Origin: Flavobacteriales bacterium | GTDB lineage: Bacteria > Bacteroidota > Bacteroidia > Flavobacteriales > BACL11 | Reading direction: 5' to 3' | Assembly (NCBI GenBank): GCA_014381465.1 | Contig: JACNLP010000079.1 | Location: 1 to 45,149 of the forward strand | Length of the DNA stretch: 45,149 nucleotides | Shown: positions 1 to 18,776 of the stretch, piece by piece | Numbering within the stretch: position 1 is the first letter of the stretch | Layout of the letters: each line of letters starts with the position of its first letter | Program-made: the position numbers and the translations under genes | The notes under the pieces: model-generated | What the model was told of the DNA's origin: nothing | Databases searched by the model: none | What the model saw: the letters and a program-made list of their open reading frames with translations, nothing else

Positions 1-763
1 TGCGTTTTTCTTCTAAAGGTAAAGTATTGTCAAAAAGTTCAATTTCTTTTTCAGTAGAAAGGTGAAAAACATGAAGCCTTGTATTGTGTTTTTTTGCCAA
101 TTCCACTGCCATAGAAGAAGATTTATAACAAGCTTCAGCACTTCTAATATTTGGGTGTTCGCTAATTGGTACTTCCTCTCCAAACTGAGCTTTTGCTTTC
201 TCAATATTTTCCTGAATAGTAGCTTCATCCTCACAATGAACAGCAATTAACATAGGTGATTTTTGAAAAATCTCTTTCAATACGGATTTATTATCAACCA
301 ACATATTGCCAGTTGAAGAGCCCATAAATATTTTAATTGCCCCAACTGTTTTAGGATCAGTTTTTAAAACTTCATCTAAATTGTCGTTACTCGCTCCCAT
401 AAAAAAGCTGTAGTTGGCAATTGAAGTTTCTGCTGCAATTTGGTATTTATCCTCTAGTAGTTCTTGTGTTAAAGCTTGCGGATTGGTATTTGGCATTTCC
501 ATAAAAGAAGTAATTCCACCAGCCACTGCTGCTTTACTTTCAGTGTAAATATTTGCCTTATGTGTTAATCCTGGCTCACGAAAATGAACTTGATCATCAA
601 TTACGCCAGGCAATAAATGAAGTCCTTCTGCATCAATAATTGTATCTGCTTCAGTAGTGATTTTTGATGCAATCTCTTTTATCTTTTGATTTTCAATCAA
701 CACATCTGCTTTGTAAATTTTCCCTTCATTTACAAGAGTTGCGTTTTTTATTAATGTGAGCAT
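1..763 (-). CDS. pyrC: Dihydroorotase, class I (partial, C-terminus off the left edge)
   Basis: Only the first 254 codons are in the window; the reading frame stays open to base 1. Dihydroorotase cyclises carbamoyl-aspartate to dihydroorotate in de novo pyrimidine synthesis in the cytoplasm. Reading from the ATG at 763, I see the amidohydrolase signature GVIDDQVHFREPG (residues 53-65), the SFMEMPNT segment, KIFMGSSTGN with the lysine position that is usually carboxylated, and metal-site histidines in IAVHCEDE and LHVFHLST. The first histidine of the usual HxH zinc motif is glutamine here (Q58-V-H60), a substitution I recall from Bacteroidota homologues. Hydantoinase or allantoinase relatives are possible, but the HFREPG and MPNT segments favour dihydroorotase. 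The 129 bases upstream hold two repeat structures and no clear promoter box. Confidence 0.85.
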   Translation of the reverse strand, partial: MLTLIKNATLVNEGKIYKADVLIENQKIKEIASKITTEADTIIDAEGLHLLPGVIDDQVHFREPGLTHKANIYTESKAAVAGGITSFMEMPNTNPQALTQELLEDKYQIAAETSIANYSFFMGASNDNLDEVLKTDPKTVGAIKIFMGSSTGNMLVDNKSVLKEIFQKSPMLIAVHCEDEATIQENIEKAKAQFGEEVPISEHPNIRSAEACYKSSSMAVELAKKHNTRLHVFHLSTEKEIELFDNTLPLEEKR

Positions 764-791
764 TTTTAGGATTTTTATTGGGCTTTACACA

Positions 792-839
792 CCCCTAAGC
801 CCTTACTTCACATGCGTTCAGCACATGCTTTTTAGAGGG
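792..839. repeat. Imperfect inverted repeat enclosing a direct repeat
   Basis: The left arm CCC-CTAA (792-798) pairs with TTAG-GGG (832-835 and 837-839) with one bulged base. The enclosed sequence carries two copies of CACATGC (809-815 and 822-828). It lies between the dihydroorotase start and the upstream glycosyltransferase, so it could be a weak RNA hairpin or a genome-specific intergenic repeat. No T-tract follows on either strand, so it is not a typical terminator. Confidence 0.35.
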
Positions 840-856
840 ATTTTTGTTTATTTGTT

Positions 857-891
857 ATCTAAATACTAATGTCTAAAGTCTATTATCTAGT
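857..891. repeat. Degenerate 7-bp tandem repeat
   Basis: Five consecutive heptamers with a TCTAA-like core lie in exact 7-base register: ATCTAAA (857), TACTAAT (864), GTCTAAA (871), GTCTATT (878) and ATCTAGT (885). The array ends at the stop codon of the glycosyltransferase at 893. The approximate consensus is RTCTAAW. No function is evident. Confidence 0.5.
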
Positions 892-892
892 T

Positions 893-1624
893 CTATCTTT
901 TCCATTTTCTAAAAAAACTTTTGAGTTTCATTTGGATTACTCCAATAACGGCTTCCATAAAAATTCCACCACTCATTTTTGATTCTCCTTCAGTCCTGTC
1001 CGTAAAAATTACAGGAACTTCAACTACATTAAATCCATATTTCCAAGCTTTAAATTTCATTTCAATCTGAAAGGCATAACCAACAAATTGAATTTTATCA
1101 AAATTAATAGTTTCTAAAACTTTTCTTTTGTAGCATTTAAAGCCGGCAGTTGAATCATGAATGGGCATTCCCGTTATGAATTTTACATATTTTGATGCAA
1201 AAAAGGACATGAGTAAACGCGCCATTGGCCAATTTACAATATTAACCCCCTTTACATATCGTGATCCAATGGATAAATCTCCACCCTCATTTGCATTGGC
1301 ATTATATAGTCGAATTAAATCATCAGGATTGTGAGAAAAATCAGCATCCATTTCAAAAATAAATTTGTAATCTTTTTGCAATGCCCATTTAAACCCATGA
1401 ATGTAAGCTGTTCCAAGTCCTAGTTTTCCAGTTCTTTCTTCAATATGTAATTGTTCAGGAAATTCTGACTGTAGTTTTTTTACAATACCTGCTGTTCCAT
1501 CAGGAGAACCATCATCTACAATTAGGATGTGGAAAACCTTATCCAAAGAAAAAACCTTACGAATTATCTTTTCGATATTCTCCTTTTCGTTATATGTTGG
1601 GATGATGATTAAACTATCTGACAT
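893..1624 (-). CDS. Polyprenol-phosphate mannose synthase-like glycosyltransferase (GT2)
   Basis: A 243-residue family 2 glycosyltransferase of the dolichol/polyprenol-phosphate-mannose synthase type. Such enzymes transfer mannose (or another hexose) from a nucleotide sugar to a polyprenyl phosphate at the inner face of the membrane. Visible motifs are IIIPTYNEKENI near the N-terminus, VDDGSPDG (residues 36-43), the metal-binding DAD (93-95) followed by FSHNPDD, and the late FTDRTEGESKM segment typical of this family. The protein ends there with no GtrA-like or multi-TM extension, so it is a soluble or peripheral catalytic unit. It starts at ATG 1624, 34 bases from the end of the acetyl-CoA synthetase gene, and may be co-transcribed with it. 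The donor sugar cannot be told from sequence. Confidence 0.85.
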   Translation of the reverse strand: MSDSLIIIPTYNEKENIEKIIRKVFSLDKVFHILIVDDGSPDGTAGIVKKLQSEFPEQLHIEERTGKLGLGTAYIHGFKWALQKDYKFIFEMDADFSHNPDDLIRLYNANANEGGDLSIGSRYVKGVNIVNWPMARLLMSFFASKYVKFITGMPIHDSTAGFKCYKRKVLETINFDKIQFVGYAFQIEMKFKAWKYGFNVVEVPVIFTDRTEGESKMSGGIFMEAVIGVIQMKLKSFFRKWKR

Positions 1625-3653: not shown

Positions 3654-4568
3654 ATGAAAAAGACTTTACTATTATTAAGTATGTTATTTACAATCGGTTT
3701 AAATGCACAAATTGTTGATTGTAATGAATTATTCTTCTCGGAATATATAGAAGGACCTGGGAATAATAATGCAATTGAGATTTATAATCCAACAAATAGT
3801 CCCATTAACTTAAGCGGTTATACCATAAATAGATATTGGAATGGAGCTACTTCTGGCCCAGATATATGGCCTTTAAGCGGAACTCTAAATACTGGAGAAG
3901 CTATAGCAATTGGTAACGGACAAGTGGATTCTGTTTGGGTTTCTACTTATTGGTCTCTTCCAGTTGACCCTGTTTTTTATTCTGCTTGCGGACAACACGG
4001 AAGTGGCATTTATCCCACACCTTTTTATTTTAATGGTGATGATGCTATGACTTTAGAAAAGGCTGGGAATATTATCGATATATTTGGGAAAGTAGGAGAA
4101 GATCCAGGGCAAGCATGGACAGATGATGCGTCAGCTGGATATACGGATGCAAATGGAGGAACATGGTGGACTAAAAGACAAACATTAGTAAGAAAAGCAA
4201 GTGTAAAAAAAGGAGTTACTACTAATCCTATTTTGTTCAACCCTACTTTGGAATATGACTCCCTACCAGATGCAACTTATTCAGGAATGGGAACACATAG
4301 TTGCGATTGTAGTATTATTAGCTCAATAAATGAAACAAATGATATTTCTTACATTATGTATCCTAACCCTGCAAATCTTGGGGCTATTGTAACGGTTAAT
4401 ACAAATTCGAAAATTAAAAGAATTAAATTGATAAATATATTAGGGGAAGTTGTTTCTCGCCCATCAAGCAATAAAATTGAAACTGATAATTTAGCTAAAG
4501 GAACTTATATTGTAAATATTATATTTGAGGATGGCAGAGAAGTTGATAATAAATTAATTGTTGAGTAA
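3654..4568 (+). CDS. Secreted lamin-tail-domain protein with type IX sorting domain
   Basis: 304 residues. An N-terminal signal peptide (about residues 1-18, ending LNA) is followed by a lamin tail domain recognisable from LFFSEYIEGPGNNNAIEIYN and INLSGYTINRYWNG. This domain occurs in extracellular bacterial proteins, often beside nucleases or phosphatases. A linker leads to a C-terminal type IX sorting domain of about 70 residues, starting at MYPNPANLG and containing IKLINILGEVV and LAKGTYIVNI. The protein is therefore expected on the cell surface or in the medium. I see no catalytic domain; a binding or accessory role is likely. It is the first gene of a plus-strand set with a TonB-dependent receptor and a phospholipase-D-family protein, and it is separated from the receptor by a terminator-like hairpin. 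Confidence 0.85.
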   Translation: MKKTLLLLSMLFTIGLNAQIVDCNELFFSEYIEGPGNNNAIEIYNPTNSPINLSGYTINRYWNGATSGPDIWPLSGTLNTGEAIAIGNGQVDSVWVSTYWSLPVDPVFYSACGQHGSGIYPTPFYFNGDDAMTLEKAGNIIDIFGKVGEDPGQAWTDDASAGYTDANGGTWWTKRQTLVRKASVKKGVTTNPILFNPTLEYDSLPDATYSGMGTHSCDCSIISSINETNDISYIMYPNPANLGAIVTVNTNSKIKRIKLINILGEVVSRPSSNKIETDNLAKGTYIVNIIFEDGREVDNKLIVE

Positions 4569-4588
4569 GTAAACAATAAACAAATTTG

Positions 4589-4618
4589 AAATGCTGATGG
4601 AAACATCAGCATTTTTTT
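4589..4618 (+). terminator. Rho-independent terminator-like hairpin
   Basis: An 11-bp perfect stem, AAATGCTGATG (4589-4599) with CATCAGCATTT (4604-4614), closes a GAAA loop and runs into a T-tract (4612-4618). The hairpin ends about nine bases before the ATG of the downstream TonB-dependent receptor, leaving no space for a conventional promoter between them. It may be an attenuator or partial terminator that lowers receptor expression relative to the first gene. Confidence 0.85.
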
Positions 4619-4627
4619 ACGAATATT

Positions 4628-7450
4628 ATGAAGAGAATAGCAGTTTTATTAGGAGGAATATTGATAGCATTTGGGGCTGTTGCTCAAACGAAAATTAGCG
4701 GTACAATTACTGATGCTAACACTGGTGAAGCATTAATTGGGGCCACAGTTATCTATGGAAAAGGAATGGGTACTGCTACTGATTTTGATGGGAATTATTC
4801 ATTTAATATTCAGCCAGGTGAAAGAAGTTTAAAGGTTTCCTATGTTGGGTATAAAGAAATAAGTAAAACTATTACTGTAGGAGAAACTTCACAAACATTA
4901 AACTTTAAGTTGAAAACTGTTTTACTTAATGAAGTGCAAGTAGTTGCCGATATTGCTAGAGATAGAGAAACTCCAGTTGCATTTTCAACTATTCCTATGA
5001 AAAAAATTAGTGAAGAATTAGCTTCACAAGATATTCCAATGATACTCAATTCCACTCCTGGAGTTTATGCTACTCAAAGTGGAGGTGGTGATGGTGATGC
5101 TAGAATCACAATAAGAGGATTTAACCAAAGAAATGTTGCAGTAATGATTGATGGAATTCCTGTAAATGATATGGAAAACGGTTGGGTGTATTGGAGCAAC
5201 TGGTTTGGATTAGATGCAGTAACTTCTAATATACAAGTGCAAAGAGGATTGGGAGCTTCAAAAATTGCGATTCCATCAGTTGGAGGGACTATGAATATTT
5301 TGACAAGAGGAATTGGAAATAAAGCAGGGGGGAGCATAAAACAATCGGTTGGAAGTTATGGAAAATTAAGAACATCACTAGGTTATAATTCTGGAAAGTT
5401 AGAAAATGGTTGGGGCTATACTTTGGCTGGTTCCTACAAAAAAGGAAATGGTTTTGTAGATGAAACTTGGAGTGAGGGGTTCTTTTATTATGCTAAAATT
5501 CAAAAATATTTAGGAAATCATATTTTGAGTTTATCAGCAATGGGGGCACCTCAAAAACACGGACAAAGGTCTTATAAAAGTGATATTGCAACTTATTGGA
5601 ACAAAGCTCAGCAGATGTATAGAGCTGACTCTTTAAATGGAGAATTTAAAAGTATGGATTATTACTTTAAGGAGGCAATAAAATATAACAAACATTGGGG
5701 GCATTTAGACAGATGGACTTTGGATAATAATGGAGATACGATACATAATAGAGAAACACTAAATACAAAACAGAATTACTATCACAAACCTCAATTTTCA
5801 TTAAGAGATTTTTGGACTGTAAACGATAAATTTTATGTTTCTAATATCTTATATGCTTCTATTGGGCATGGTGGAGGAACGGCTTTGAGTGGAAATACAA
5901 ATAATTATGATACAGATGGGCAGTACAATTTGCAAGAGGCCTACAATACGAATGTAAATAATATAGATGCGCTTTATTCTGATTCACAAAATAAGGCAGG
6001 CACCTACCTTAGAAGCTCCATCAATAATCATTTTTGGTATGGAGGATTATCTACTCTTAATTATCAGGTATCTGATGAAATTTCACTTTCGGGAGGATTA
6101 GATATGCGCTATTATAAAGGGCAACATTACAGAGAAGTTTACGATTTATTAGGAGCTGACTATGCTATTGATGATGCAAATGGAATGCAAAATTCGCAAG
6201 TAAAAAAAGTGGGAGATGTAGTGGGTTATCATAATGATGGAATAGTAAAATGGTCTGGCATTTTTTCTCAAATGGAATACAGCAATGGAATGTTAAGTGC
6301 ATTTTTTAATATTTCTGGCTCTAATTCTGCCTATAAAAGAATTGATTATTTTAAAAAGAAAGACTTGATCTTAGAGGACACTACTTATTTGGAGGCTTTA
6401 GGAACTTCAGTAGCAACAGAATTAGAATTTGATGAAAATGGAAATTTGATTGGCGCACATAAAACAATGGTGGAAGATACCATTTGGCATAATGGTAACT
6501 TCTATACAAGAAATTCTGAAGAAGCAAAATTGGCTGAAACTTCTTGGAAATGGATTAGAGGATTTACCATAAAAACAGGTGCAAATGTAAATTTGGATGA
6601 ATACAATAATGTGTTTTTTAATGTGGGTTATATTTCCAAAGCACCAAGATTTAATAATGTGTATGATTATAGTAATCAACTTTTTAGAGATATCCGCAAT
6701 GAACAAGTAAAGGCAGTTGAAGGAGGTTATTCATATCGTTCCTCCTTACTTTCGGCTAATATAAATGGCTATTATACTATTTGGGAAAATAAACCTTCAA
6801 ATGGCGGAGTAACAGTTATGGTTGATGATGTGCCTTTTAAAGCAAATATAAATGGAATGAATGCTTTACATAAAGGAGTAGAAATGGATGTGGCTTTGAA
6901 AATTAATCGGCAAATTAGTGTAGAAGGATTGCTTTCATTGGGCGATTGGAGATGGACTTCTTCTGATACAGCTCGTTTTTTAGATGATGACAACAATCCT
7001 GTAATGATAAATGATACAACAGAATTAATAGCCCCATTTGATGCCAAAGGAGTGCATGTTGGTGATGCTGCACAAACTCAGTATGGCTTAAGTATAAGAT
7101 ATGAGCCTAACCATAATTCTTACATCAAATTAAGAGGTACCTATTTTGCTGATTACTATGCTGATTTTGATCCATTGTCGTTAAATGGAGATAATGCCGG
7201 TAGAGAAAGCTGGAAAATCCCAGCATATCAATTAGTAGATTTACATGCGGGATACAAGTTCAAGATATTTGATGATAAGAAACTAGATATTAAATTTAGC
7301 ATACTTAATTTGTTCAATGAAACTTATATTTCTGATGCCCAGAATAATGATCCTTTTAATGCAAGCTATCAAGATTTTGATGCAAAATCTGCTGGAGTAT
7401 TTTTTGGCTTAGGCAGAAGGTTTAGTTTGTCAGCAAGATTCAATTTTTAA
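4628..7450 (+). CDS. TonB-dependent outer-membrane receptor with carboxypeptidase-regulatory-like domain
   Basis: 940 residues. A signal peptide (about 1-19, AVAQ) precedes an N-terminal beta-sandwich domain (about 21-105; SGTITDANTGEALIGATV). A plug domain follows (about 115-240, with ITIRGFNQRNVAVMIDGIPV), then a 22-strand-type barrel ending in an aromatic residue (ARFNF). It would import a substrate across the outer membrane using TonB/ExbBD energy; a TonB gene lies at 39.2 kb. No SusD partner is present, so it is not a classical glycan SusCD pair. The flanking secreted genes suggest a ligand released by phosphodiester cleavage, but that is inference. The ATG lies nine bases after a strong hairpin, and the next gene begins 20 bases after the stop, so those two are probably co-transcribed. 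Confidence 0.9.
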   Translation: MKRIAVLLGGILIAFGAVAQTKISGTITDANTGEALIGATVIYGKGMGTATDFDGNYSFNIQPGERSLKVSYVGYKEISKTITVGETSQTLNFKLKTVLLNEVQVVADIARDRETPVAFSTIPMKKISEELASQDIPMILNSTPGVYATQSGGGDGDARITIRGFNQRNVAVMIDGIPVNDMENGWVYWSNWFGLDAVTSNIQVQRGLGASKIAIPSVGGTMNILTRGIGNKAGGSIKQSVGSYGKLRTSLGYNSGKLENGWGYTLAGSYKKGNGFVDETWSEGFFYYAKIQKYLGNHILSLSAMGAPQKHGQRSYKSDIATYWNKAQQMYRADSLNGEFKSMDYYFKEAIKYNKHWGHLDRWTLDNNGDTIHNRETLNTKQNYYHKPQFSLRDFWTVNDKFYVSNILYASIGHGGGTALSGNTNNYDTDGQYNLQEAYNTNVNNIDALYSDSQNKAGTYLRSSINNHFWYGGLSTLNYQVSDEISLSGGLDMRYYKGQHYREVYDLLGADYAIDDANGMQNSQVKKVGDVVGYHNDGIVKWSGIFSQMEYSNGMLSAFFNISGSNSAYKRIDYFKKKDLILEDTTYLEALGTSVATELEFDENGNLIGAHKTMVEDTIWHNGNFYTRNSEEAKLAETSWKWIRGFTIKTGANVNLDEYNNVFFNVGYISKAPRFNNVYDYSNQLFRDIRNEQVKAVEGGYSYRSSLLSANINGYYTIWENKPSNGGVTVMVDDVPFKANINGMNALHKGVEMDVALKINRQISVEGLLSLGDWRWTSSDTARFLDDDNNPVMINDTTELIAPFDAKGVHVGDAAQTQYGLSIRYEPNHNSYIKLRGTYFADYYADFDPLSLNGDNAGRESWKIPAYQLVDLHAGYKFKIFDDKKLDIKFSILNLFNETYISDAQNNDPFNASYQDFDAKSAGVFFGLGRRFSLSARFNF

Positions 7451-7470
7451 ATAATTAATAAATAAATAAA

Positions 7471-9591
7471 ATGAAAAAGACAACAACATTAATTTTTACA
7501 ACTCTACTAAGTTTAGTAGGATTTGCACAAGATATTGCAACTGCAAGAGCACAAGGAATTGGATCAACAGTAACTATTACAGGTATAGTAACTAATGGGG
7601 ATGAATTAGGTCCTATTAGATATATTGAGGATGCAACAGCTGGTTTGGCTTTGTATGATCCAACTGCTTTATCTGGGCTGCAAAGAGGAGATGAAGTAAC
7701 GGTTTCAGGAACATTAAAAGATTACAATGGACTCTTAGAGATGGATCCAGTAAATTCCAATACCACTAATTCAACAGGAAACTCCGTAATCCCACAAGTG
7801 GTTACACCTATTCAAATTGGAGAAAACACAGAATCGGAACTAGTACAAATTGATAATGTAATTTTTAATAGTGGGGGTTCGCTTTTTACTGTGGGGACTC
7901 ATGATTTCACATCAAATGGAGAAACAGGAAAAGTGTATATAAGGACAGGAAGTCCATTAGAAAACGCATTAATTCCAATGGGTCTTGTTACACTTGTTGG
8001 GATTTCATCACAATATACTTTTTCAGTTCCGGCTAATGATGGCTATCAAATTCTTCCAAGGGATTCTGCTGATATTATTCAAACTGGGGCTTTGATTTTC
8101 ACCTCTGCTGTGGTGCAATCTAATATTACAACAACAAGTTTTGATTTGAGTTGGAGTGTTTCAGATTCTTCCAGTACAAATTGTAATTACGGGACTACTA
8201 CTGCTTTAGGAACTGCTATAAATAATGGTGGAAACACGCTAACACATACTTTGAATTTAACAGGACTTTCTCCTGCTACTTTTTATCATGTGGAATGCTT
8301 TTCTATAAACGGAACGGATACTGCTTTCTCAAATATTGGAATTTATGCTACTGCATCCAATTCATCAGGAGTTATTCGTCCTTATTTTAATCATTCAGTG
8401 GATGTGTCAGTTTCAACTGGGGTGGATGCTCAAAATATTACAACTTATTTTAACGATACCATTAAAGCGTATATGGATTTAGCACAAAACACACTGGATA
8501 TTTGTGTGTATAATGCTTCTGATGCAACTATTGCTACTGCCATAAATGATGCCTATAATAGAGGAGTTACAGTTCGATATATTGCAGATGATGATGTAAC
8601 AAATATTATGTTAAATAGTTTAGATCCGAATATTCCAATTGTCTATCGCGACCCTGCATTGTCTGGAATTATGCACAATAAATTTATTATTGTGGATGCA
8701 AATTCTACTAATAATTCTTGGGTTTTAGGTGGCTCAACAAACTGGACAAATCCTACTAATCTGTTTAATGATTATAATAATATCATCTTCATTCAGGATG
8801 AGGCAATTGCTAAGGCATATACTTTAGAGTTTGAAGAAATGTGGGCAGGAACTTTTGGAGAAAACAAGGTAGATAATACACCCCATAAATTTGTAGTTGG
8901 CGGGAAAGATGTTGAAGTGTATTTTTCTCCTTCTGATCAAACAACATCTAAAATTTTAGAGGTAATAAATAATGTAGATTATACTTTTGAGTTCGGACTT
9001 TTAGGCTTTACTCGAAATGATTTAGGGCAAGCAGTAATTGATAAAAACACTCAATTTGGAGTAAATATCAGAGGAATAATAGAGGACGAGAACACAACAG
9101 GAAGTGAGTTTGCTAATCTTCAATCAAATGGTGTAAATGTAAAATCTCACATGGGAGTTACTTATTCTTTGCACCATAAATATGCTATTGCAGATGCTGA
9201 TGTTGTTGCCTCAGACCCTACAGTTTTAACAGGTTCGCATAATTGGAGCAATAATGCTGAAAATAATTCTGATGAAAATACTTTAATAATTCATGATGCT
9301 ACTATTGCTAATATCTATTTACAAGAATTTACTGAGCGTTTTAATGAATTAGGAACTACTAATATTGATGATTTAATTGAAATAGAAATTTCAGTTTTCC
9401 CAAATCCTTCTACTGGAATTGTAACTGTAAAAACGGATTTAGCAATTGAGAAAATAAACTTGTATGCAGTTGATGGAAAATTACTGAATACGACACAAGA
9501 ATCAGTTATTCAAATTGATACAAAAGGAATTTATTTTATAAAAATCATTACACAGCAAGGACATATTGTAAAAAGAGTAGTAGTAAATTAG
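7471..9591 (+). CDS. Secreted phospholipase-D-family protein (OB-like + FN3 + two HKD motifs + type IX sorting domain)
   Basis: 706 residues. After a signal peptide (about 1-19) comes an OB-fold-like region (about 20-205; VTITGIVTNGDELGPIRYIED, LQRGDEVTVSGTL). A fibronectin type III domain follows (about 208-300; TTTSFDLSWSV, LTGLSPATFYHVECF). Next are two phospholipase-D-superfamily half sites: HNKFIIVD (about residue 402) with GGSTNWT, and HHKYAIAD (about 568) with GSHNWS. Both fit HxK(x)4D, so the bilobal active site looks complete. The C-terminus (FPNPSTGIVTVKT to KRVVVN) is a type IX sorting domain. The superfamily includes phospholipases and endonucleases, so the substrate could be lipid or nucleic acid. 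It is the last gene of the lamin-tail/TonB-receptor set. Confidence 0.88.
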   Translation: MKKTTTLIFTTLLSLVGFAQDIATARAQGIGSTVTITGIVTNGDELGPIRYIEDATAGLALYDPTALSGLQRGDEVTVSGTLKDYNGLLEMDPVNSNTTNSTGNSVIPQVVTPIQIGENTESELVQIDNVIFNSGGSLFTVGTHDFTSNGETGKVYIRTGSPLENALIPMGLVTLVGISSQYTFSVPANDGYQILPRDSADIIQTGALIFTSAVVQSNITTTSFDLSWSVSDSSSTNCNYGTTTALGTAINNGGNTLTHTLNLTGLSPATFYHVECFSINGTDTAFSNIGIYATASNSSGVIRPYFNHSVDVSVSTGVDAQNITTYFNDTIKAYMDLAQNTLDICVYNASDATIATAINDAYNRGVTVRYIADDDVTNIMLNSLDPNIPIVYRDPALSGIMHNKFIIVDANSTNNSWVLGGSTNWTNPTNLFNDYNNIIFIQDEAIAKAYTLEFEEMWAGTFGENKVDNTPHKFVVGGKDVEVYFSPSDQTTSKILEVINNVDYTFEFGLLGFTRNDLGQAVIDKNTQFGVNIRGIIEDENTTGSEFANLQSNGVNVKSHMGVTYSLHHKYAIADADVVASDPTVLTGSHNWSNNAENNSDENTLIIHDATIANIYLQEFTERFNELGTTNIDDLIEIEISVFPNPSTGIVTVKTDLAIEKINLYAVDGKLLNTTQESVIQIDTKGIYFIKIITQQGHIVKRVVVN

Positions 9592-9683: not shown

Positions 9684-11507
9684 ATGACATTTTCAGATAT
9701 AGGATTAGATAAAAGTATTCAAAAAGCCATCTCCGATTTAGGATTTGAGCAGCCAACCCCTATCCAACAGGAGAGTATTCCTTTTTTACTTGCAGAGGAG
9801 AACGACCTTATTGCGCTAGCACAAACCGGAACCGGGAAAACAGCTGCTTTTGGCTTGCCAATAATTCAGAAAATTGAAACAGATAGTAAGCAAACACAAG
9901 CTATTATTTTATGTCCAACAAGGGAGCTTTGTTTACAAATAACAAAGGATATGGGAACCTATGCAAAATATACAAAGGGGCTAAAAATTACAGCTGTTTA
10001 TGGAGGAACAAACATTCAAACACAAATAAAAGCACTCAATTCTGGCAGTCAGATTGTAGTAGGAACTCCTGGTAGAGTAATTGATTTAATCAAAAGAAAA
10101 AAACTAAAACTTGGGCATATTGAGTATGTAGTATTAGATGAAGCAGATGAAATGCTCAATATGGGATTTAAAGAAGATTTAGACACTATTTTAGCAGAAA
10201 CGCCAGAGGAAAAAAGAACACTTCTTTTTTCAGCAACCATGCCAAAAGAAGTAATGCGTATTACCAAAAATTATATGTTCAGTCCCAAAACTATTGAAGT
10301 AGCTGGTAGGAATGAGGGAGCAAAAAATGTAGAACATCATTATTATATGGTAAATGCTCGTGATAGGTATAAAGCCCTTAGAAGAATATGTGATGTAAAT
10401 CCTGATATTTACGGTATTGTTTTTTGTAGAACGCGTAGAGAAACAAAAGATGTTGCCGATAAATTAATGCAAGATGGTTATAATGCAGATGCTTTACATG
10501 GCGATTTATCACAATCGCAAAGAGACCATGTAATGGGAAGGTTCAGAAAGAGAAATTTGCAAATGTTGGTGGCCACTGATGTGGCAGCAAGAGGAATTGA
10601 TATTGATGATTTAACACACATCATAAATTACAATTTACCGGATGATTTAGAAGTTTATGTTCACCGATCAGGTAGAACAGGCAGGGCTGGTAAAAATGGG
10701 ATTTCTATTATTATTTCACATTCTAGAGAAAGAAGAAAGTTGCAAGCCATTAGTAAAATGCTGAAAAAAGATTTGATTCTGAAACAAGTTCCTGATGGAG
10801 AGGAAATTTGTGCAATACAATTACTTACCCTTATTGATAAAGTAGTAAAAACAGATGTAAATGATCAAATTGAAAAATACATTCCTATTATTGAAGAAAA
10901 GTTAGCACATTTGGACAAAGAAGAGCTTCTAAAACATTTTGTTTCAGCAGAATTTAATCGTTTTCTTTCCTTCTATAAAAATGCCCCTGATTTGAACATC
11001 AGTGCAAATAGCAAAAATGAAAGAGGCAGAAAAAATGAGAGAAGGAAAAGTGAGAGAAGAGAGAAAAAAGGAGGAAGTACAGGGCATGCGGAAAAAGGTT
11101 ATACTCGTTTCTTTATCAATTTAGGGAAATTGCAAAACTTGGAAACCCACAACCTAATTGGGCTTATCAACGAATACACTCGCCAAAGGAATATTCCTAT
11201 TGGGAAGATTGACATTTTGCGTAAGTTTTCCTTTTTTGAAGTGGATAGCAATCATGAGCAAGATGTATTAGCTGGATTGGCAAATGCCAATTGGAATGGC
11301 AATAGAGTATCAGTGGAAATTTCCAAACCACCAACTTCTAAAGGGGCTGATTTCAAAAGAAAATTATCTGGAAGTGGAAGAAAAAGATTTGATGCAAAAA
11401 GAAAAAGCAGTAGCAGTAATAAAAGAAAGAGTAGCCCAAGAAGGGGTGGTGGAGAAGGCTCTTTCAAAGACAAATTTAAGGCCAGTACAAAAAGAAAAAA
11501 GCGTTAA
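9684..11507 (+). CDS. DEAD-box ATP-dependent RNA helicase with DbpA-type RNA-binding domain
   Basis: 607 residues from the ATG at 9684. A TTG six bases upstream extends the frame by two codons but is less likely. Helicase motifs are complete: Q motif (FEQPTPIQ, 21-28), motif I AQTGTGKT (46-53), PTREL, TPGR, DEAD (about 152-155), SAT, ATDVAARGID and HRSGRTGRAG. After a charged linker comes a DbpA/CsdA-like RNA-binding domain (about 472-550; YTRFFINLGKLQNLE, IDILRKFSFFEVD), then a lysine- and arginine-rich tail. This architecture fits a CsdA/DeaD-type helicase acting in ribosome assembly, cold adaptation or RNA decay. Its stop codon overlaps that of the convergent tsaB gene. Confidence 0.93.
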   Translation: MTFSDIGLDKSIQKAISDLGFEQPTPIQQESIPFLLAEENDLIALAQTGTGKTAAFGLPIIQKIETDSKQTQAIILCPTRELCLQITKDMGTYAKYTKGLKITAVYGGTNIQTQIKALNSGSQIVVGTPGRVIDLIKRKKLKLGHIEYVVLDEADEMLNMGFKEDLDTILAETPEEKRTLLFSATMPKEVMRITKNYMFSPKTIEVAGRNEGAKNVEHHYYMVNARDRYKALRRICDVNPDIYGIVFCRTRRETKDVADKLMQDGYNADALHGDLSQSQRDHVMGRFRKRNLQMLVATDVAARGIDIDDLTHIINYNLPDDLEVYVHRSGRTGRAGKNGISIIISHSRERRKLQAISKMLKKDLILKQVPDGEEICAIQLLTLIDKVVKTDVNDQIEKYIPIIEEKLAHLDKEELLKHFVSAEFNRFLSFYKNAPDLNISANSKNERGRKNERRKSERREKKGGSTGHAEKGYTRFFINLGKLQNLETHNLIGLINEYTRQRNIPIGKIDILRKFSFFEVDSNHEQDVLAGLANANWNGNRVSVEISKPPTSKGADFKRKLSGSGRKRFDAKRKSSSSNKRKSSPRRGGGEGSFKDKFKASTKRKKR

Positions 11508-12175
11508 GATTTTTTTCCTGCTATAAAATCTTTCAAATAAAAGGGTTCAAAATAAGCTACATCTTCAAAATCTTTATTGGTATATTTTTGATTAGCCAAA
11601 ACAATCATATCTTTTGAGTTTGGATAGATTCCATCCAAAAATTTAGCATTTTTATGCTTTATTATTCCTTTACATTTTTCTGCCCCATCACCAAAAAACA
11701 AAACCTTTTCTTCTAACTCCTTTTGGTAAGACTCATTATCAATAATATCGGCTTGCACACCTCTAATTTTCTTATTATTTTTATCATAAAACGCATTATA
11801 AACCTCCATCCTACGCGCATCAATCATTGGGCAATACAAATCTGATTTTTCTTTTTTAGCCATTCCAAAAGCCATTGCTTTTAGGGTAGAAACAGAAATA
11901 AGTGGAACATCTAGAGCAAAACAAAGCCCCTTTGCAGTAGAGGTGCCAATACGCAAACCAGTATAAGAACCAGGGCCTTTGCTCACGGCAACTGCATCTA
12001 AATCCTGCATGATAAAATCTTGATTTTTGAATAATTCTGTAATAAAAACAGTGAGCTTTTCAGCATGAGAATATTGCTCATTGACCTCATGTTTTGTAGC
12101 AATAATTTTATTCTCAGAAGATAATGAAACTGAACAACTTTTTGTTGCTGTTTCTATAAGCAGAATAAGAGCCAT
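11504..12175 (-). CDS. tsaB: tRNA threonylcarbamoyladenosine biosynthesis protein TsaB
   Basis: 223 residues, the usual TsaB length. TsaB is the non-catalytic ASKHA-fold partner of TsaD in the complex that makes N6-threonylcarbamoyladenosine at position 37 of ANN-decoding tRNAs. Visible family segments are ILLIETATKSCSVSL at the N-terminus, EQYSHAEKL, and the highly conserved VSKGPGSYTGLRIGTSTAKGL. The gene converges on the helicase gene; the two TAA stops overlap (11504-11507). It follows the HlyD adaptor gene by nine bases, so it is probably the last gene of the tolC-hlyD-tsaB run. Confidence 0.95.
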   Translation of the reverse strand: MALILLIETATKSCSVSLSSENKIIATKHEVNEQYSHAEKLTVFITELFKNQDFIMQDLDAVAVSKGPGSYTGLRIGTSTAKGLCFALDVPLISVSTLKAMAFGMAKKEKSDLYCPMIDARRMEVYNAFYDKNNKKIRGVQADIIDNESYQKELEEKVLFFGDGAEKCKGIIKHKNAKFLDGIYPNSKDMIVLANQKYTNKDFEDVAYFEPFYLKDFIAGKKS

Positions 12176-12184
12176 TTATTTGTT

Positions 12185-13483
12185 TTAGTTTACCTTCACG
12201 CTAAATCCTGACTTTCTATTTTTACCATCTTTTTCCTCCTCTATGCTTTCTACTTTTGTGCCATCTTTTAGTGTTTTTGAAATCAAAGTGTATGGACCTG
12301 TTATCACCACATCACTATCTGATATACCTTCTAATACCTGAATAAAGTTATCATTCTGAATGCCTGTTTTTACAATCGTAAAATTAGCCATTTCATTTTC
12401 AAATAAGAAAACACATTCTACCTTTTTATTGTCTCCATTTTTTGCTGTGTCTTTTCTTGTAGTTACTGCTTGAATTGGAACTGAAATTACATTTTTTTCT
12501 AAGTTGGTTTGCACTTCAACAGATGCCGTCATGCCAGGACGAAACATGGTCTTATCCAATATCCTAATCTTTACTTCAAAATTAGTGACTTGATCGGCAC
12601 TTACTCCACTTACATTGGCAGAATTTGCAATTTCAGTTACAATTCCTTTAAATTCTTCTCCTAAAAAAGCATCTACTTCAATAAGGGAAGTATCGCCAAG
12701 ATGAACACGAACAATATCGTTTTCGTTTACTTCCACGGCCACCTCCATAGCACTTAAATTAGCCAAACGCATCAGCTCAGTTCCTGACATTTGCCCAGTA
12801 CCAACCACCCTTTCGCCAAGTTCAACATTTAGCCTAGAAATAGTTCCATCCACTGGTGCGTAAATAGAAGTTTTATCTAAATTTTCTTCCGCCTCATTTA
12901 AAGATGCCTCTGCGCTACTTACTGCATACTCTGAACTTTCCACATTTAGCTCAGCCACTTTATAAGCTGCTTCAATTTGCTCAAATTCTGATAAGGAAAT
13001 TGCATCTTGATTGTAGAGTCGTTTGTTTCTATTAAACTTTGCCTTACTTTCAGTTAGTTGTGCATTGGATTTTGCCAAATTTGCTTTTGCGGTATTTACA
13101 GATGCCTTACTTCTTTCCAAAATAGATTTGTAAATATCAGGTTTTATTTTCAGAAGTAAATCTCCTTTTTCTACCCTATCTCCTTCTTTAATGAGCAGTT
13201 CTACAATTTCTCCTGAAACATCTGGGGAAATTTTCACTTCTACTTCTGGCTGTATTTTTCCACTTGCTGAAACAGTTTCTATAATGCTTCTTCTTTCTAC
13301 TTTTTCTGTTTTTACTTGCAGAATTTCCTCTGTTTTAATAAGCCCTGTTAGTGAACTAATTAGCATAATAAATGCCAAAACAAAAATGCCAATTCCTAAT
13401 TTTTTAAGTTTAGAGATTTTCTTTTTTTTACCAAAAAAATAAAAAATGGAAGCAATAATGGATAAGACGAAAAATATTTTCAT
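12185..13483 (-). CDS. Efflux periplasmic adaptor (HlyD/RND membrane-fusion family)
   Basis: 432 residues. An N-terminal hydrophobic segment and a membrane anchor (about residues 31-50) lead into the adaptor core. This comprises a lipoyl half (SASGKIQPEVEVKISPDVSGEI, then VKEGDRVEKGDLL-like), a helical hairpin of about 100 residues with high coiled-coil character (ERSKASVNTAKANLAKS to LNEAEENL), the second lipoyl half (IYAPVDGTISRLNVELGERV), a beta-barrel and a membrane-proximal domain (GMTASVEVQTN). It would bridge an inner-membrane ABC or RND pump and the TolC-like channel encoded two bases upstream. The pump is not in the window; MacA-type adaptors pair with MacB ABC permeases, which is one possibility. 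The low-complexity GKKKK start is typical of Bacteroidota homologues. Confidence 0.88.
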   Translation of the reverse strand: MKIFFVLSIIASIFYFFGKKKKISKLKKLGIGIFVLAFIMLISSLTGLIKTEEILQVKTEKVERRSIIETVSASGKIQPEVEVKISPDVSGEIVELLIKEGDRVEKGDLLLKIKPDIYKSILERSKASVNTAKANLAKSNAQLTESKAKFNRNKRLYNQDAISLSEFEQIEAAYKVAELNVESSEYAVSSAEASLNEAEENLDKTSIYAPVDGTISRLNVELGERVVGTGQMSGTELMRLANLSAMEVAVEVNENDIVRVHLGDTSLIEVDAFLGEEFKGIVTEIANSANVSGVSADQVTNFEVKIRILDKTMFRPGMTASVEVQTNLEKNVISVPIQAVTTRKDTAKNGDNKKVECVFLFENEMANFTIVKTGIQNDNFIQVLEGISDSDVVITGPYTLISKTLKDGTKVESIEEEKDGKNRKSGFSVKVN

Positions 13484-13485
13484 AA

Positions 13486-14922
13486 CTATAAGGTTAAAGG
13501 TTTTCCTAGGAAGAAATCAAGGATTTTAATTTTAAATAAATAATCATATTTGGATTGTAATAAATCGGACTCTGCTTTTATGAGTTTGTTTTTTGCATCA
13601 TTATAATCATACACATTTAGCATGCCCTCATTAAATTTTTGCTCATTATAACTAAATGATTCTTGTAGCGCTTCTACCGATTTTTTAGCAAACTCATATT
13701 GTTTTTCGGCAGCAATTACATCTGCTCTTACTTGTTCGACTTGTTTCCTTAGTTGATTTTTTGTTTTTTGCAAATCATTTTTGGCACTCATTACGCCAAT
13801 TTTAGCATTTGCAATGGATGAGTTTGTCATCCAACCATTAAACAAAGGAATGCTAAGTGAAAAAGAAAGAGATTGGGAAAAATTGTCTTTCAATTGCTGG
13901 TTGAAAGGTGTAATTTCAGAAGCGTAATCATATACTGGAATTAATACATTCTCCCCTGAAATTTCAGTTTGATAACCAGATGGGAACATGCCCAAAGAAT
14001 CAATTCCTGTAATTCTTGTTCTTGCATCAGAATAGCCAGAACCCATTGAGCCGTTAAGCGTAATCCTTGGGCTTCTTTCACCTCTTGAAATAGCTAAGGA
14101 TTTATTGCTACTTTTTAATCTGTACTCTGCACTTTTTACATTTGGGAACACCTGCTTTGCGGCATTATAAATCTCCTCTGTACTTGGTATTTTGTTTTGT
14201 TTTGGCAATGAAATAGCTGGGACGACTATTTCAAAATGAATATTTTCCTTAATTTCTAATAATTGTTTTATGTTTAGAATCGCTATTTCTTTTTGACTTT
14301 TTGCTTTTACTAATTGTAAGTTTTCAGAGGCTACCTGAGATCTGCTTTCTAATAGCGAACCCTTTGCTAATTGCCCTTCATTTACCAATTTACGAATTCT
14401 TTCCTCTTGCTCAATAGAAATAGCTAATTGTTTTTGGGCTATAATTACTAACTCTTTATTAAAAAGCAGTTGTAAAAAATCGGTAGCCACAGTTATTGAA
14501 ATATCATTTATAACTTTCTTAATATCATATTGTTTTGCCATATACTCATAATTATCTCGCTTTACTTTATTCAAGTTTTGGAAACCACTAAAAAGAGTAA
14601 CAGAAGATGAAAGAGAAAAATTATTTGTTTTTACATTTAAATCGGAAAACTCATTAGTAAAAGGATCAACTGTTCTGCCATAATTATAAGCTTGAGAACT
14701 ACCTCCATTTAAAGATGGTAATAATGAAAGTTTGGATTGAAGCAGTTGTTGCTCAGAAGAGAGAACAGAAAGTTTAACTTGTTTTATATCTAAATTTTCC
14801 TCTTTTGCCCTATTAATACACTCTTGCAGAGTCCAGCTTTTTTGAGAGTATATATTTAAAGAGTGTAAAACTACTATTAAAAAAACAGCATATTTTTTTA
14901 TTTCAAATTTTATGTATCGCAA
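13486..14922 (-). CDS. TolC-family outer-membrane efflux channel
   Basis: 478 residues from a TTG at 14922. A signal peptide (about 11-26, ending YSQ) precedes the mature start SWTLQECINRAKEENLDIKQ, the usual opening of Bacteroidota TolC proteins. Two long helical repeats follow, with glutamine- and alanine-rich coiled-coil segments and the late YNEQKFNEGMLNVYDYNDAKN motif. It would form the trimeric outer-membrane exit duct for the HlyD-type adaptor encoded just downstream. No ATG occurs near the N-terminus in this frame. The true start is TTG at 14922 or a rarer codon such as ATA at 14913. A TAAATTTG sequence (14920-14927, minus strand) that could be a -7 box overlaps the TTG, which leaves the start uncertain. 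Confidence 0.88.
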   Translation of the reverse strand: MRYIKFEIKKYAVFLIVVLHSLNIYSQKSWTLQECINRAKEENLDIKQVKLSVLSSEQQLLQSKLSLLPSLNGGSSQAYNYGRTVDPFTNEFSDLNVKTNNFSLSSSVTLFSGFQNLNKVKRDNYEYMAKQYDIKKVINDISITVATDFLQLLFNKELVIIAQKQLAISIEQEERIRKLVNEGQLAKGSLLESRSQVASENLQLVKAKSQKEIAILNIKQLLEIKENIHFEIVVPAISLPKQNKIPSTEEIYNAAKQVFPNVKSAEYRLKSSNKSLAISRGERSPRITLNGSMGSGYSDARTRITGIDSLGMFPSGYQTEISGENVLIPVYDYASEITPFNQQLKDNFSQSLSFSLSIPLFNGWMTNSSIANAKIGVMSAKNDLQKTKNQLRKQVEQVRADVIAAEKQYEFAKKSVEALQESFSYNEQKFNEGMLNVYDYNDAKNKLIKAESDLLQSKYDYLFKIKILDFFLGKPLTL

Positions 14923-14963
14923 ATTTAAGAAGATTTTATTTTTTTTGGTTATTTGTAAGAATG

Positions 14964-16634
14964 CTAAAAATCATAGTAATGATTAAATAAATCTGTTTTT
15001 AAACTAATGGTGTAGAACATTGTGTTTGTTTCATCTATTTCATTCAAAAAATTGCGCTTTGTAATTCCTAAATCAATCTTAAAATTTGTTGATGGATTAA
15101 TAATGTAGCCCACATTTAATTGAAAATAATTTATATTAGTAAGATTTCCTTGATACATTTTCATTCCAAATTCATCCAATACTCCATCATTATTTCTATC
15201 TGGTCTTCCTATACCTACATGCTGTACACCTGATTCTTCAGCAAAGTTTCCAGTGGACATATACAAATCATTTCCATAAGAAGTTTTATCATTTAATATT
15301 TTACCTCCGTATTTTGCAATCATCAGTTGTGCTCTTGCCACCCATCTATCTTTTCTGTAATTTATAATCAAAAGTTTTTCTGAAAAGTTGGCACCAAGTG
15401 GATGTGCAAGCGGTTGATTATAATGTGCGTAATTCTGCATAGGATTATGATGAGCATAGGTATAAGGCCGTACCAAATTGTATTCTGTTTGTAGGGTTAA
15501 GTTTTTTAAACCAAATACATCATGCATTTTTGCGCCAATTTGATAACCATATTTTGAGCCAAACCAATCATCACCTGATTTCATTTCATCTAAACTAAAT
15601 TCATCTAGAACAAATTGTCCATAAAGGGAAGATTTAAAAGGTAATTTGTATTTCATATTTATCCCAACAAGTGCATTGTCAGGGGAATTTATAGAAAACT
15701 CCAAAGGGCGAAATAGTGCAATGGGATTGAGATAATTCACATCAAAACCTCTAGCTCCTGGAGCGTGATTTGCTCTCCATATTACAGATTCAAAAATACT
15801 AATTGTTAAATTGGAATTTACATTTACACTTAAATAATGGGCCGACATATATTTTTTGGCATAGCCCAATTGATCATAATTATCAAGTCCATTATTTTCA
15901 AAATAATTAATGTCTTGCATTTCTGCATAAAGGTTAGTGTATTGCAGCTTCCAAAAGGAAGTTTGTATGCGTAAAAAAGGATAGTTAAAAGCATTATCCG
16001 AGAGCAAAAGCGAACGATAACCATTTCCAATAAAATGTTTTCCGTGCCCAAATTGAACTGTAAAATGCTTGGCTGGTTTTATAGCCACATAGCCAGAAGC
16101 CATAGCATAATCAAATCCTGTTGATTTGAAATCTCTTGCGTATCCCTGCCCTGGAACTACTTTATTTATTCTAATAGAAGAATCTATATAGTTTGGAAAT
16201 ATCGCTTGATTTTCAGCAAAAGAAGAATAAAAAGAAACGGATTTCCCTATATCTCCTTCAATAATAAAACCTCTAGTATTGGTAAAAGTATTTGTGCCAC
16301 TAACTGTTTCTTTTCCTTTTGAAAAGTGTATAATTGGAGAAGCAGTAATATTAAAATCTTCTCCTTTAATTATAATAAGGTGCTCTGAAAATAATTTTCG
16401 CTTGTACCAATTATTCCAATTATTTGGGAATTTATAATTTAGTAAAGAATCTAAATTTACTTTTTTATTTACGGAAGATTTTATTAGCGGTTTAAAAGAA
16501 GTATGAATGTTTGTTTCCATAATTTCTTTTTCATAAATCAAATTTGCTTCATGGTTAAGAGGTAAATTGCTATGCTGAGAAAACAAGCTAAAATAAGCTC
16601 CAAAAAAGGCACTAAAAAATAATAATCTATGCAT
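14964..16634 (-). CDS. Wzi/RemB-like outer-membrane beta-barrel protein
   Basis: 556 residues with a signal peptide (about 1-19, ending LFSQ) and then alternating hydrophobic strands rich in aromatic residues, typical of an outer-membrane barrel. Segments such as VQFGHGKHFIGNGYRSLLLSDNA and YLNPIALFRPLEFS resemble proteins annotated as capsule-assembly Wzi-like or gliding-motility RemB in Bacteroidota. Wzi-type proteins anchor capsular polysaccharide to the outer membrane. The gene overlaps the end of the WecA/TagO-type transferase gene by eight bases and is therefore probably transcribed with the polysaccharide genes, which supports a surface-glycan attachment role. The assignment rests on recalled family features, not on a search. 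Confidence 0.6.
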   Translation of the reverse strand: MHRLLFFSAFFGAYFSLFSQHSNLPLNHEANLIYEKEIMETNIHTSFKPLIKSSVNKKVNLDSLLNYKFPNNWNNWYKRKLFSEHLIIIKGEDFNITASPIIHFSKGKETVSGTNTFTNTRGFIIEGDIGKSVSFYSSFAENQAIFPNYIDSSIRINKVVPGQGYARDFKSTGFDYAMASGYVAIKPAKHFTVQFGHGKHFIGNGYRSLLLSDNAFNYPFLRIQTSFWKLQYTNLYAEMQDINYFENNGLDNYDQLGYAKKYMSAHYLSVNVNSNLTISIFESVIWRANHAPGARGFDVNYLNPIALFRPLEFSINSPDNALVGINMKYKLPFKSSLYGQFVLDEFSLDEMKSGDDWFGSKYGYQIGAKMHDVFGLKNLTLQTEYNLVRPYTYAHHNPMQNYAHYNQPLAHPLGANFSEKLLIINYRKDRWVARAQLMIAKYGGKILNDKTSYGNDLYMSTGNFAEESGVQHVGIGRPDRNNDGVLDEFGMKMYQGNLTNINYFQLNVGYIINPSTNFKIDLGITKRNFLNEIDETNTMFYTISLKTDLFNHYYDF

Positions 16635-17691: not shown

Positions 17692-17696
17692 TTCCC

Positions 17697-18731
17697 TTAT
17701 CTTTTTGAGTTGTTTTTTAATCCTTCTATATCAGATTCAACCATTATTTTGCATAAATTTTCAATAGTAGTTTTTGGTTTCCAGCCAAGTAGCTTTTCTG
17801 CTTTTGCTGGGTTGCCAATTAAAGCATCTACTTCTGCTAATCTATAATACTTTTCACAAACCCTAACTATCGTTTTCCCTGATTGTTTATCAATTCCTTT
17901 TTCTTTTTTTCCAACTCCTTCCCACTGAATTTCTTTGCCTATTGTGGCAAATGCTAACTCAGTAAATTCTCTAACAGTAGCAGCTCTATTGGTTGCCAAA
18001 ACAAAAGTATCGGAAACATCATGTTGCATCATTCTATACATTCCTTCTACAAATTCTGGGGCATACCCCCAATCTCTGCTTGCATCCAAATTGCCCAATT
18101 CTATACAATTACCTTCACCAGCATTTATTCTCGCAACTCCATCTGTTATTTTTCTGGTTACAAATTCTAATCCTCTAAGCGGAGATTCATGATTAAAAAG
18201 TATTCCACTGCAAGCAAAAATATTATAAGATTCTCGATAATTCTGTGTCATCCAATGAGCATATAATTTTGAAACCCCATAAGGGCTTCTAGGGTAAAAA
18301 GGGGTTGTTTCTTTTTGTGGGATTTCTTGCACTTTTCCGTAAAGTTCAGAAGTAGAGGCTTGATAAAACTTTATGTTTTTATCCACAATTCGGATGGCTT
18401 CAAGAAGATGTGTAACTCCAATTCCTGTAATCATACTTGTTGCAATTGGCTGATCAAAAGATACATGAACAAAACTTTGAGCTGCCAAATTATAAATTTC
18501 ATCTGGTCTAATTTCAGAAACCATTCTTATTGTACTAGAGGCATCAATTAAATCGTGTTCTATTAATATAAGATTCGGATTTTCCTTAATTCCTAAATAC
18601 TCAATACGCCAAAAGTTTTGCGAACTTGTTCTTCTATAGGCTCCATAAACCTTATAGTTTTTAGCTAGTAAAAATTGGGCTAAGTAAGCACCATCCTGCC
18701 CTGTTATTCCAGTTATAATTGCTTTTTTCAT
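17697..18731 (-). CDS. gmd: GDP-mannose 4,6-dehydratase
   Basis: 344 residues. An extended short-chain dehydrogenase that converts GDP-D-mannose to GDP-4-keto-6-deoxy-D-mannose using NADP. The Rossmann motif [10 protein letters not shown] is at 8-17. Catalytic residues lie in [10 protein letters not shown] (T127 or S126 and E129) and [15 protein letters not shown] (Y151, K155). The core also has [22 protein letters not shown] and the C-terminal [23 protein letters not shown]. The product is the precursor of GDP-fucose, GDP-rhamnose and GDP-perosamine; no Fcl, Rmd or Per gene is in the window. Because gmhB and gmhA lie next to it, a heptose substrate (as for DmhA-type homologues) cannot be excluded. 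Confidence 0.88.
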
Positions 18732-18776
18732 TAAAGGAGGTTACTTGTTTTAGGTGTAAAAATACTCATAAATAAT

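Follow-up and report, generated by a model that had tools for sequence, protein, structure and literature searches.

In the 45,149-nt stretch of DNA from a marine bacterium analyzed here (the window), three open reading frames follow one another on the same strand with intergenic gaps of 59 and 20 bases. They encode a secreted protein with a lamin tail domain (LTD), a TonB-dependent receptor, and a secreted enzyme of the PLD superfamily that we read as a nuclease (Table 1). The initial annotation had described two type IX-sorted proteins around a TonB-dependent receptor, on one strand and without SusD, and both the reading frames and Pfam bear this out; Pfam matched no SusD in these three genes or in the three neighbours that were also scanned (acetyl-CoA synthetase, glycosyltransferase and DEAD-box helicase). 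The two outer proteins are predicted cargo of the type IX secretion system (T9SS), given their type A C-terminal sorting tails and a match to SprA_N, a component of the T9SS machinery, within the window, and both would be located at the cell surface. The three proteins have acidic overall pI values (4.62 for the LTD protein, 5.96 for the receptor and 4.36 for the enzyme), and their charge gave no DNA-binding signature.

Table 1. Features of the three-gene set (positions in the window).
Feature	Position	Strand	Details
Secreted LTD protein	3654..4568	+	304 aa; Pfam, NCBIfam
LTD domain of LTD protein	about 3723-4091	+	PF00932, E 1.1e-12
T9SS type A sorting tail of LTD protein	about 4356-4562	+	PF18962 (Por_Secre_tail), E 4e-9; TIGR04183
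Hairpin then T run; possible partial terminator	4589..4614	+	-17.1 kcal/mol, z -5.6; LTD-receptor gap
TonB-dependent receptor	4628..7450	+	940 aa; Pfam, AF2 model
CarboxypepD_reg domain of receptor	about 4694-4942	+	Pfam CarbopepD_reg_2, E 9e-19
Plug domain of receptor	4961-5287	+	Plug PF07715, E 1.1e-14; barrel C-terminal to plug
Secreted PLD-superfamily enzyme, read as nuclease	7471..9591	+	706 aa; Pfam, fold
DUF5689 (OB-like) domain of enzyme	7537..8076	+	48.9 bits, cut-off 28.6
First HKD motif of enzyme	8674..8742	+	H402, K404, D409, G421, N424; alignment
Second HKD motif of enzyme	9172..9243	+	H568, K570, D575, G588, N591; alignment

The LTD part of the first protein resembles the NCBIfam model of ExeM, with a score far under the cut-off of that model. 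As for the hairpin that follows its gene, a simple terminator scan gave the stem on the opposite strand only; it was missed on the + strand because the T run overlaps the stem there. Of 58 relatives, 26 have a terminator-like hairpin in the corresponding gap, against a mean of 5.65 in shuffled sequences. The shuffling preserved nothing beyond base content, and the receptor-nuclease gaps that served as a comparison are in many cases shorter. This hairpin and the N-terminal DUF5689 domain of the enzyme had both been overlooked in the initial annotation; the latter is absent from the hmmscan Pfam listing.

The second protein is assigned to the TonB-dependent receptors by its plug, which is predicted to sit inside an outer-membrane barrel, and transport through it is predicted to depend on TonB. 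In the fold comparison, its AF2 model (pLDDT 84.9) matched TonB-dependent receptors with a plug. The nearest solved structures were receptors for siderophores, PQQ, citrate and copper, at 10-14% identity, and the fold search gave nothing decisive on cargo. Nor does barrel kinship alone imply a nucleic-acid cargo, as the barrel is also found in paralogues with unrelated neighbours: none of the 22 barrel-family paralogues with identities up to 38% has an LTD neighbour, as judged by a small model made from window-family sequences. They adjoin unrelated genes, and their barrels still score 242-527 bits with the window-family barrel model. The controls for these scores were 28 partial-ORF receptors, obtained as loci from 146 plug matches in three genomes; at least two other plug matches of the same genomes (L198 and L200, 338-339 bits) belong to the receptor family.

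The enzyme consists of a DUF5689/OB-like domain, an fn3-like domain, two HKD domains and a T9SS tail (Pfam PLDc_2 in two stretches, E 2.5e-34; Por_Secre_tail, E 1.7e-7). It carries two intact HxK(x4)D motifs, as members of the PLD superfamily do, and the HKD residues of both are invariant in all 26 aligned sequences (the window enzyme and 25 of 32 PLD-type candidates from the linkage analysis below). The top Foldseek match was PLD3, with structures of PLD3 and PLD4 with ssDNA listed, and the best single-chain fit was the nuclease Nuc (TMt 0.83); the second entry was a phospholipase D (7e0m), and vaccinia F13 and phosphatidylserine synthases were further among the matches. By sequence, the best match among solved structures was a protein named mitochondrial cardiolipin hydrolase (Zucchini/MitoPLD). 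Nuc of Salmonella and NucT of Helicobacter share the HKD motifs and the fold; Nuc also matches in sequence (E 7.7e-7), NucT weakly (E 0.08), and the NucT models (NCBIfam PRK13912) stayed under their cut-off (65.9 vs 297 bits for the best model). Unlike these two nucleases, the window enzyme has two HKD domains per chain as well as DUF5689, fn3 and T9SS parts. We consider it a putative nuclease, on the basis of its fold and of its exchange with Endonuclease I in relatives.

We found the same gene set in scattered lineages across Bacteroidota, and since the trio recurs in relatives it is more than a chance arrangement. Linkage was counted in the top 80 of at least 584 confirmed stretches, a sample that favours close relatives and consists almost entirely of metagenome assemblies. 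There, 68 of 72 testable loci have the LTD gene directly upstream of the receptor gene, a nuclease is encoded no more than two genes from the receptor in 55 of 56, and the full trio is present in 54 of 56, with the LTD, PLD and EndoI labels assigned by small models made from window-family sequences. The 68 loci include L089, considered as a natural LTD-receptor fusion and rejected, as it has a second signal peptide mid-sequence and its single ORF is probably a frame error; in L093, an OB-only protein occupies the place where the nuclease is expected. Pfam recognized the LTD in 69 and the T9SS tail in all of 70 LTD proteins, which had already been selected by our own LTD model. The initial annotation had proposed conservation of the trio as a check, and the absence of conserved linkage as an argument against its reading; these locus counts exclude such an absence. 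Outside the family the trio is sparse, being present in 6 of 23 other genomes of the order Flavobacteriales. A scan of 246 further genomes of the phylum gave 14 receptor matches, two of them within a trio as labelled by the same small models, which is a lower bound given that three candidates were scored per genome.

The third slot is shared by two kinds of enzyme. Among 66 third-slot proteins, already selected by our own PLD and EndoI models, Pfam identified 34 as PLDc_2 and 32 as Endonuclease_1, and 63 carried a T9SS tail. The PLD/EndoI label changes at least 12 times (fewest changes) on the receptor tree, a quick single-gene tree without bootstraps, counting all PLD- or ENDO-labelled rows, including L188 and L189 outside the LTD clade. 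The LTD-linked receptors form one clade of 91 rows (SH-aLRT 99), and the swap is also seen within the window's own family. An exchange between two unrelated nuclease folds points to nucleic acid, and not phospholipid, as the substrate.

In some loci the nuclease gene is followed by genes related to nucleotide breakdown. Directly after it, Pfam identified 5_nucleotid_C and Metallophos protein genes (the EndoI-type locus L129 of Brumimicrobium oceani), and by blastp a split 5'-nucleotidase follows the nuclease in 13 of 104 loci for its first gene and in 11 of 104 for both; in the window genome, the 5_nucleotid_C gene lies on a different contig from the trio. MFS genes beside two EndoI variants were considered as nucleoside transporters and rejected, as they match sugar-transporter models instead. 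Phosphate may control the trio, the sole hint being that LTD + Endonuclease I proteins of Flavobacterium johnsoniae, orphans without a receptor, are among the phosphate-depletion responders described in PMC8115612.

Taken together, we propose, with a probability of roughly two in three, that the trio is a SusD-less, T9SS-based locus for nucleic-acid utilization. The T9SS would place the nuclease and the LTD protein on or just outside the cell surface, where the nuclease, of the PLD type in the window, would cut extracellular DNA or RNA while its OB-like DUF5689 domain holds the strand. The LTD protein, which would be produced in excess should the hairpin work as a partial terminator, would take the role of SusD and retain the polymer or its fragments at the receptor. 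The receptor would then carry oligonucleotides or nucleotides to the periplasm, and periplasmic 5'-nucleotidases would free phosphate and nucleosides. Of the earlier proposal of a system that cuts an extracellular phosphodiester and imports the product, the nucleic-acid option gains from the linkage, the EndoI swap and the 5'-nucleotidases, import remains an expectation, and the phospholipid option is disfavoured.

The locus resembles several known systems. In the polysaccharide SusCD loci and the phosphate-induced PusCD of Flavobacterium, as presented in PMC8115612, genes for a TonB-dependent receptor, a surface protein and a degradative enzyme likewise occur together; in contrast to these, the window locus is SusD-less, its surface partners are T9SS-sorted and its enzyme is a putative nuclease. 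ExeM/NucH nucleases combine LTD, OB-like and exonuclease-endonuclease-phosphatase (EEP) parts, and deletion of the OB-like region almost abolishes the nuclease activity of Shewanella ExeM (PMC6085458). Here, the LTD and OB-like parts are distributed over two proteins, which lack an EEP domain and stay far under the NCBIfam cut-offs (61.8 of 1300 and 18.2 of 300).

HKD enzymes include phospholipases D, and several structural relatives of the window enzyme have lipid names (the cardiolipin hydrolase, 7e0m, F13 and the phosphatidylserine synthases); the enzyme could thus be phospholipase-like, and the receptor could import a phospholipid head group or a lipid product. We demoted this reading after finding Endonuclease I in place of the PLD enzyme in 32 of those 66 third-slot proteins, and regard it as very improbable: PLD3 and Nuc lead the fold comparisons, and DUF5689 also occurs in a protein that DNA uptake requires. 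It is also unlikely that the nuclease and the LTD protein serve surface defence or the cleaning of biofilm or matrix while the receptor imports an unrelated, co-regulated cargo, such as iron, a vitamin or the metal cofactor of the nuclease. The cargoes of the nearest solved receptors, the unrelated neighbours of paralogous same-family receptors and the several roles of extracellular nucleases (PMC6085458) agree with this alternative, but a linkage that persists across several Bacteroidota groups despite the change of nuclease fold is hard to explain by it.

The trio could also serve natural transformation by taking up DNA across the outer membrane, the role put forward for RA0C_RS04915/RS04920; the nuclease would then nick or trim the entering DNA. 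RA0C_RS04915 and RS04920, the latter a DUF5689 protein, are essential for transformation of Riemerella anatipestifer (PMC8459023), and a tonBA mutant was inhibited in transformation without an iron defect (PMC8383284). Like that pair, the window locus has a CarboxypepD_reg outer-membrane barrel together with DUF5689, here inside the nuclease itself, the only DUF5689 match in a genome that has ComEC and DprA. The likeness rests on the domain order of presumed RS04915 homologues, not on Riemerella sequences themselves; barrels fitting the published description reach 76-84 bits with the window-family barrel model, less than the paralogues that have other neighbours. The two such barrels tested had no plug at the Pfam cut-off, whereas the window receptor is plugged; the DUF5689 protein beside the presumed homologues has no nuclease domain and looks by eye like a lipoprotein, and no LTD protein adjoins. 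None of ten ComEC neighbourhoods held a Riemerella-type pair. The near-constant presence of a nuclease gene (55 of 56 testable loci in the sample of 80) and the 5'-nucleotidase genes in some loci also speak against uptake for transformation. The 16 family members with a completeness of 90% or more (G003 and G026 with 6% contamination, G001 and G024 with the receptor cut by a contig end) all keep the receptor, but ComEC was found in 5 and DprA in 8; 11 lack ComEC, and 8 lack both. A nutritional role is therefore likelier than transformation, and we demoted the pure transformation reading, which we consider improbable.

A broader possibility, more doubtful than the utilization locus itself, is that the receptor family holds a TonB-driven outer-membrane channel for polymeric DNA or long oligonucleotides in Bacteroidota, and that the LTD protein, delivered by the T9SS, stands in for SusD. 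The plugged branch with LTD partners would use nucleic acid as food, and transformation would be the function that the Riemerella-type branch either acquired or left behind. The odds of this are lowered by the barrel shared by paralogues with unrelated neighbours.

We found no description of the three-gene set in the open-licence literature searched. In marine sediments, Bacteroidota have been proposed to play an important part in the consumption of extracellular DNA (PMC8289736), and the papers searched propose no outer-membrane route for nucleic acids in this phylum apart from the speculative Riemerella barrel. The locus would offer a concrete candidate that combines a putative nuclease with a surface binder and a channel, and would make the question testable in cultured carriers.

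Pfam confirmed that two proteins with type IX secretion (T9SS) tails flank a plug-bearing receptor in the window, all in one direction, as the initial annotation had it; the source genome measures 1.98 Mb and is 97% complete. The DUF5689 domain of the HKD enzyme was found by a genome search with that model; hmmscan did not give it for the window enzyme, yet did for two homologues. Across 26 aligned sequences, each HKD motif keeps its catalytic H, K and D without exception. We found no description of this three-gene set in the openly licensed papers searched.

Genes and domains of the trio and its surroundings in the window
Feature	Position	Direction	Remarks
Lamin-tail (LTD) gene	3654-4568	same as other two	Pfam: lamin tail domain, T9SS tail
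Receptor gene	4628-7450	same	Pfam: CarboxypepD_reg, TonB plug
HKD enzyme gene	7471-9591	same	Pfam: two PLD-like stretches, T9SS tail
DUF5689 domain in HKD enzyme gene	7537-8076		48.9 bits (cut-off 28.6)
DEAD-box helicase gene	from 9678		next after trio
Acetyl-CoA synthetase gene		divergent	upstream of trio
Dihydroorotase and family 2 glycosyltransferase genes	1-1624	(-)	beside trio, also in many relatives
Large ORF with SprA_N domain	40340-45133	(-)	E 3e-173; T9SS translocon gene

The SprA_N ORF lies about 31 kb from its presumed T9SS cargo. Bacteroidales loci such as L099 (15476-17669) have amidohydrolase and glycosyltransferase genes on the trio's other side, and the neighbourhood may be ancient.

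The expected linkage of the three genes across genomes held among relatives fetched with a 13-member receptor alignment. In the best 80 of at least 584 confirmed stretches, the LTD gene was directly upstream of the receptor in 68 of the 72 loci having 1.2 kb or more on that side, a same-strand nuclease gene lay within two genes of the receptor in 55 of the 56 loci where both sides had room, and the full set was present in 54 of these 56 (29 PLD, 24 Endonuclease I, one both). The count includes L089, where LTD and receptor read as a single ORF, probably through a frame error. The LTD gene was not directly upstream in L093, L106, L107 and L118, the last with a broken receptor ORF and the LTD gene one position further up; the sole nuclease miss was L093, and in L105, L113 and L146 the nuclease gene precedes the LTD gene. 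Pfam, run on 70 LTD proteins picked by our own model, recovered LTD in 69 and the T9SS tail in all 70. In L123 (Bacteroidales, 12169-19380), the receptor is followed by three consecutive ORFs with Endonuclease I matches, which suggests local duplication. Record titles place the 80 loci in Bacteroidota groups, apart from L122, called only "bacterium", and L140. The latter (CP034120.1) is a complete genome whose title reads Glaciecola amylolytica (Pseudomonadota); it has the set with Crocinitomicaceae-like neighbours, reflecting either a mislabelled record or a transfer.

Among 37 genomes of the window's family, its own included, 34 had the receptor and 30 the HKD protein, some copies being cut by contig ends. 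Four of the seven others (G004, G008, G018 and G027) keep the LTD gene and receptor but encode another protein, of 713 aa, after them; Pfam assigned the G004 copy to Endonuclease I (E 3.7e-26) and also recovered a T9SS tail, and the other three cluster with it. The remaining three (G002, G010 and G033) are 62-88% complete. The set also occurs in 6 of 23 genomes from other families of the order: G044, G057 and G049 carry it with the HKD enzyme, and G042, G055 and G048 with Endonuclease I (Pfam was run for G042 and G048). Across 247 genomes spread evenly over the phylum, with three candidates scored per genome, 15 had a receptor match at E 1e-150 or below, the window's own among them. Only two of the other 14 stood in a full trio (L181, 44% identity; L182, 42%), and none of the remaining 12, nor any of ten weaker paralogues of the order, had an LTD neighbour, all 22 being at 38% identity or below; the set is thus scattered, not universal, in the phylum. 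In the paralogues L188 and L189 the next protein lacks a Pfam match (a lipoprotein by eye) and is followed by an Endonuclease I protein that has Ig-like/cadherin-like domains; this may be a further variant on the same theme.

In a quick single-gene receptor tree of 116 rows, LTD-linked receptors grouped together in a single 91-row clade (SH-aLRT 99). Of its rows, 84 are the window itself or carry an LTD neighbour according to our own model. The PLD/Endonuclease I label required a minimum of 12 changes on the tree.

The LTD-receptor gap of the window contains a hairpin of 12 base pairs that leads into a run of Ts (-17.1 kcal/mol, z -5.6), which a simple terminator scan scored on the opposite strand only. 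Of 58 relatives, 26 have a terminator-like hairpin in this gap, often of different sequence (mean in shuffles 5.65); for the receptor-nuclease gap the count was 5 of 65. The gap hairpin is a putative partial terminator, by which LTD protein would be made in excess over the receptor.

The initial annotation left the target as DNA or phospholipid. By sequence the HKD enzyme is closest to Zucchini/MitoPLD (E 1.6e-11), whose deposited name is mitochondrial cardiolipin hydrolase, then Nuc (E 7.7e-7), with a weak match to NucT (E 0.08). Its predicted model (pLDDT 86.3) matched the folds of PLD3, phospholipase D (7e0m) and PLD4 at the top, and later those of vaccinia F13, polyphosphate kinases and phosphatidylserine synthases; among single small chains, Nuc, Zucchini and NucT fitted best. 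Since these matches include both nucleases and lipid enzymes, fold alone cannot choose between them. The swap in the third slot guides the choice: 66 proteins picked there by our own models comprised, by Pfam, 34 PLDc_2 and 32 Endonuclease_1, 63 with a T9SS tail, and because these unrelated nuclease folds, whose common chemistry is cutting nucleic acid, replace one another, nucleic acid is the probable substrate and phospholipid is disfavoured. In Brumimicrobium oceani the nuclease gene is followed by one for a 5_nucleotid_C protein (E 6e-15) and then one for a Metallophos protein (E 3e-19). By blastp, 13 of 104 loci have the former immediately after the nuclease and 11 have the Metallophos gene as well; all are of the Endonuclease I version, and they fall in two distinct regions of the receptor tree. 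In the window's genome a 5_nucleotid_C gene is on another contig.

Nucleic acid might be taken up for transformation. In Riemerella anatipestifer, natural transformation is described as requiring both RS04915, an outer-membrane protein with CarboxypepD_reg, and the adjacent RS04920, with DUF5689 and choice-of-anchor J (PMC8459023). A tonBA mutation is reported to inhibit transformation with iron acquisition not decreased (PMC8383284). There the barrel adjoins a separate DUF5689 protein, whereas in the window DUF5689 lies within the nuclease. Three genomes (G054, G041 and G038; Pfam on G054 and G038) have a CarboxypepD_reg barrel of 945-959 aa adjoining a DUF5689 protein, from which domain order we infer RS04915/RS04920 homologues; in G054 and G041 an exonuclease-endonuclease-phosphatase protein, identified by Pfam in G054, is encoded divergently next to the pair. 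A model built from just the barrel of the window family gave these barrels 76-84 bits and 22 paralogues without an LTD neighbour, two of them in these same genomes, 242-527 bits. None of 28 other plug receptors matched it; these were partial ORFs, the ones supplied as loci among 146 plug matches. The Riemerella-type barrel thus appears to be a remote relative within a family that includes these LTD-less paralogues too. L093 (Marinilabiliales, 10001-13779), with a receptor, then a 296-aa OB-only T9SS protein, and neither LTD nor nuclease, has a gene order halfway towards the Riemerella-type pair.

In structure, the receptor comes nearest to receptors for siderophores, PQQ, citrate and copper (10-14% identity). 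The idea of phosphate limitation rests on a phosphate-depletion table for F. johnsoniae (PMC8115612), in which two LTD plus Endonuclease I proteins, marked orphans, respond. All 16 family members with a completeness of 90% or more have the receptor; five have ComEC, eight have DprA and eight have neither. Since the set persists in genomes that lack the inner-membrane DNA channel, the trio more likely serves to feed the cell than to transform it.
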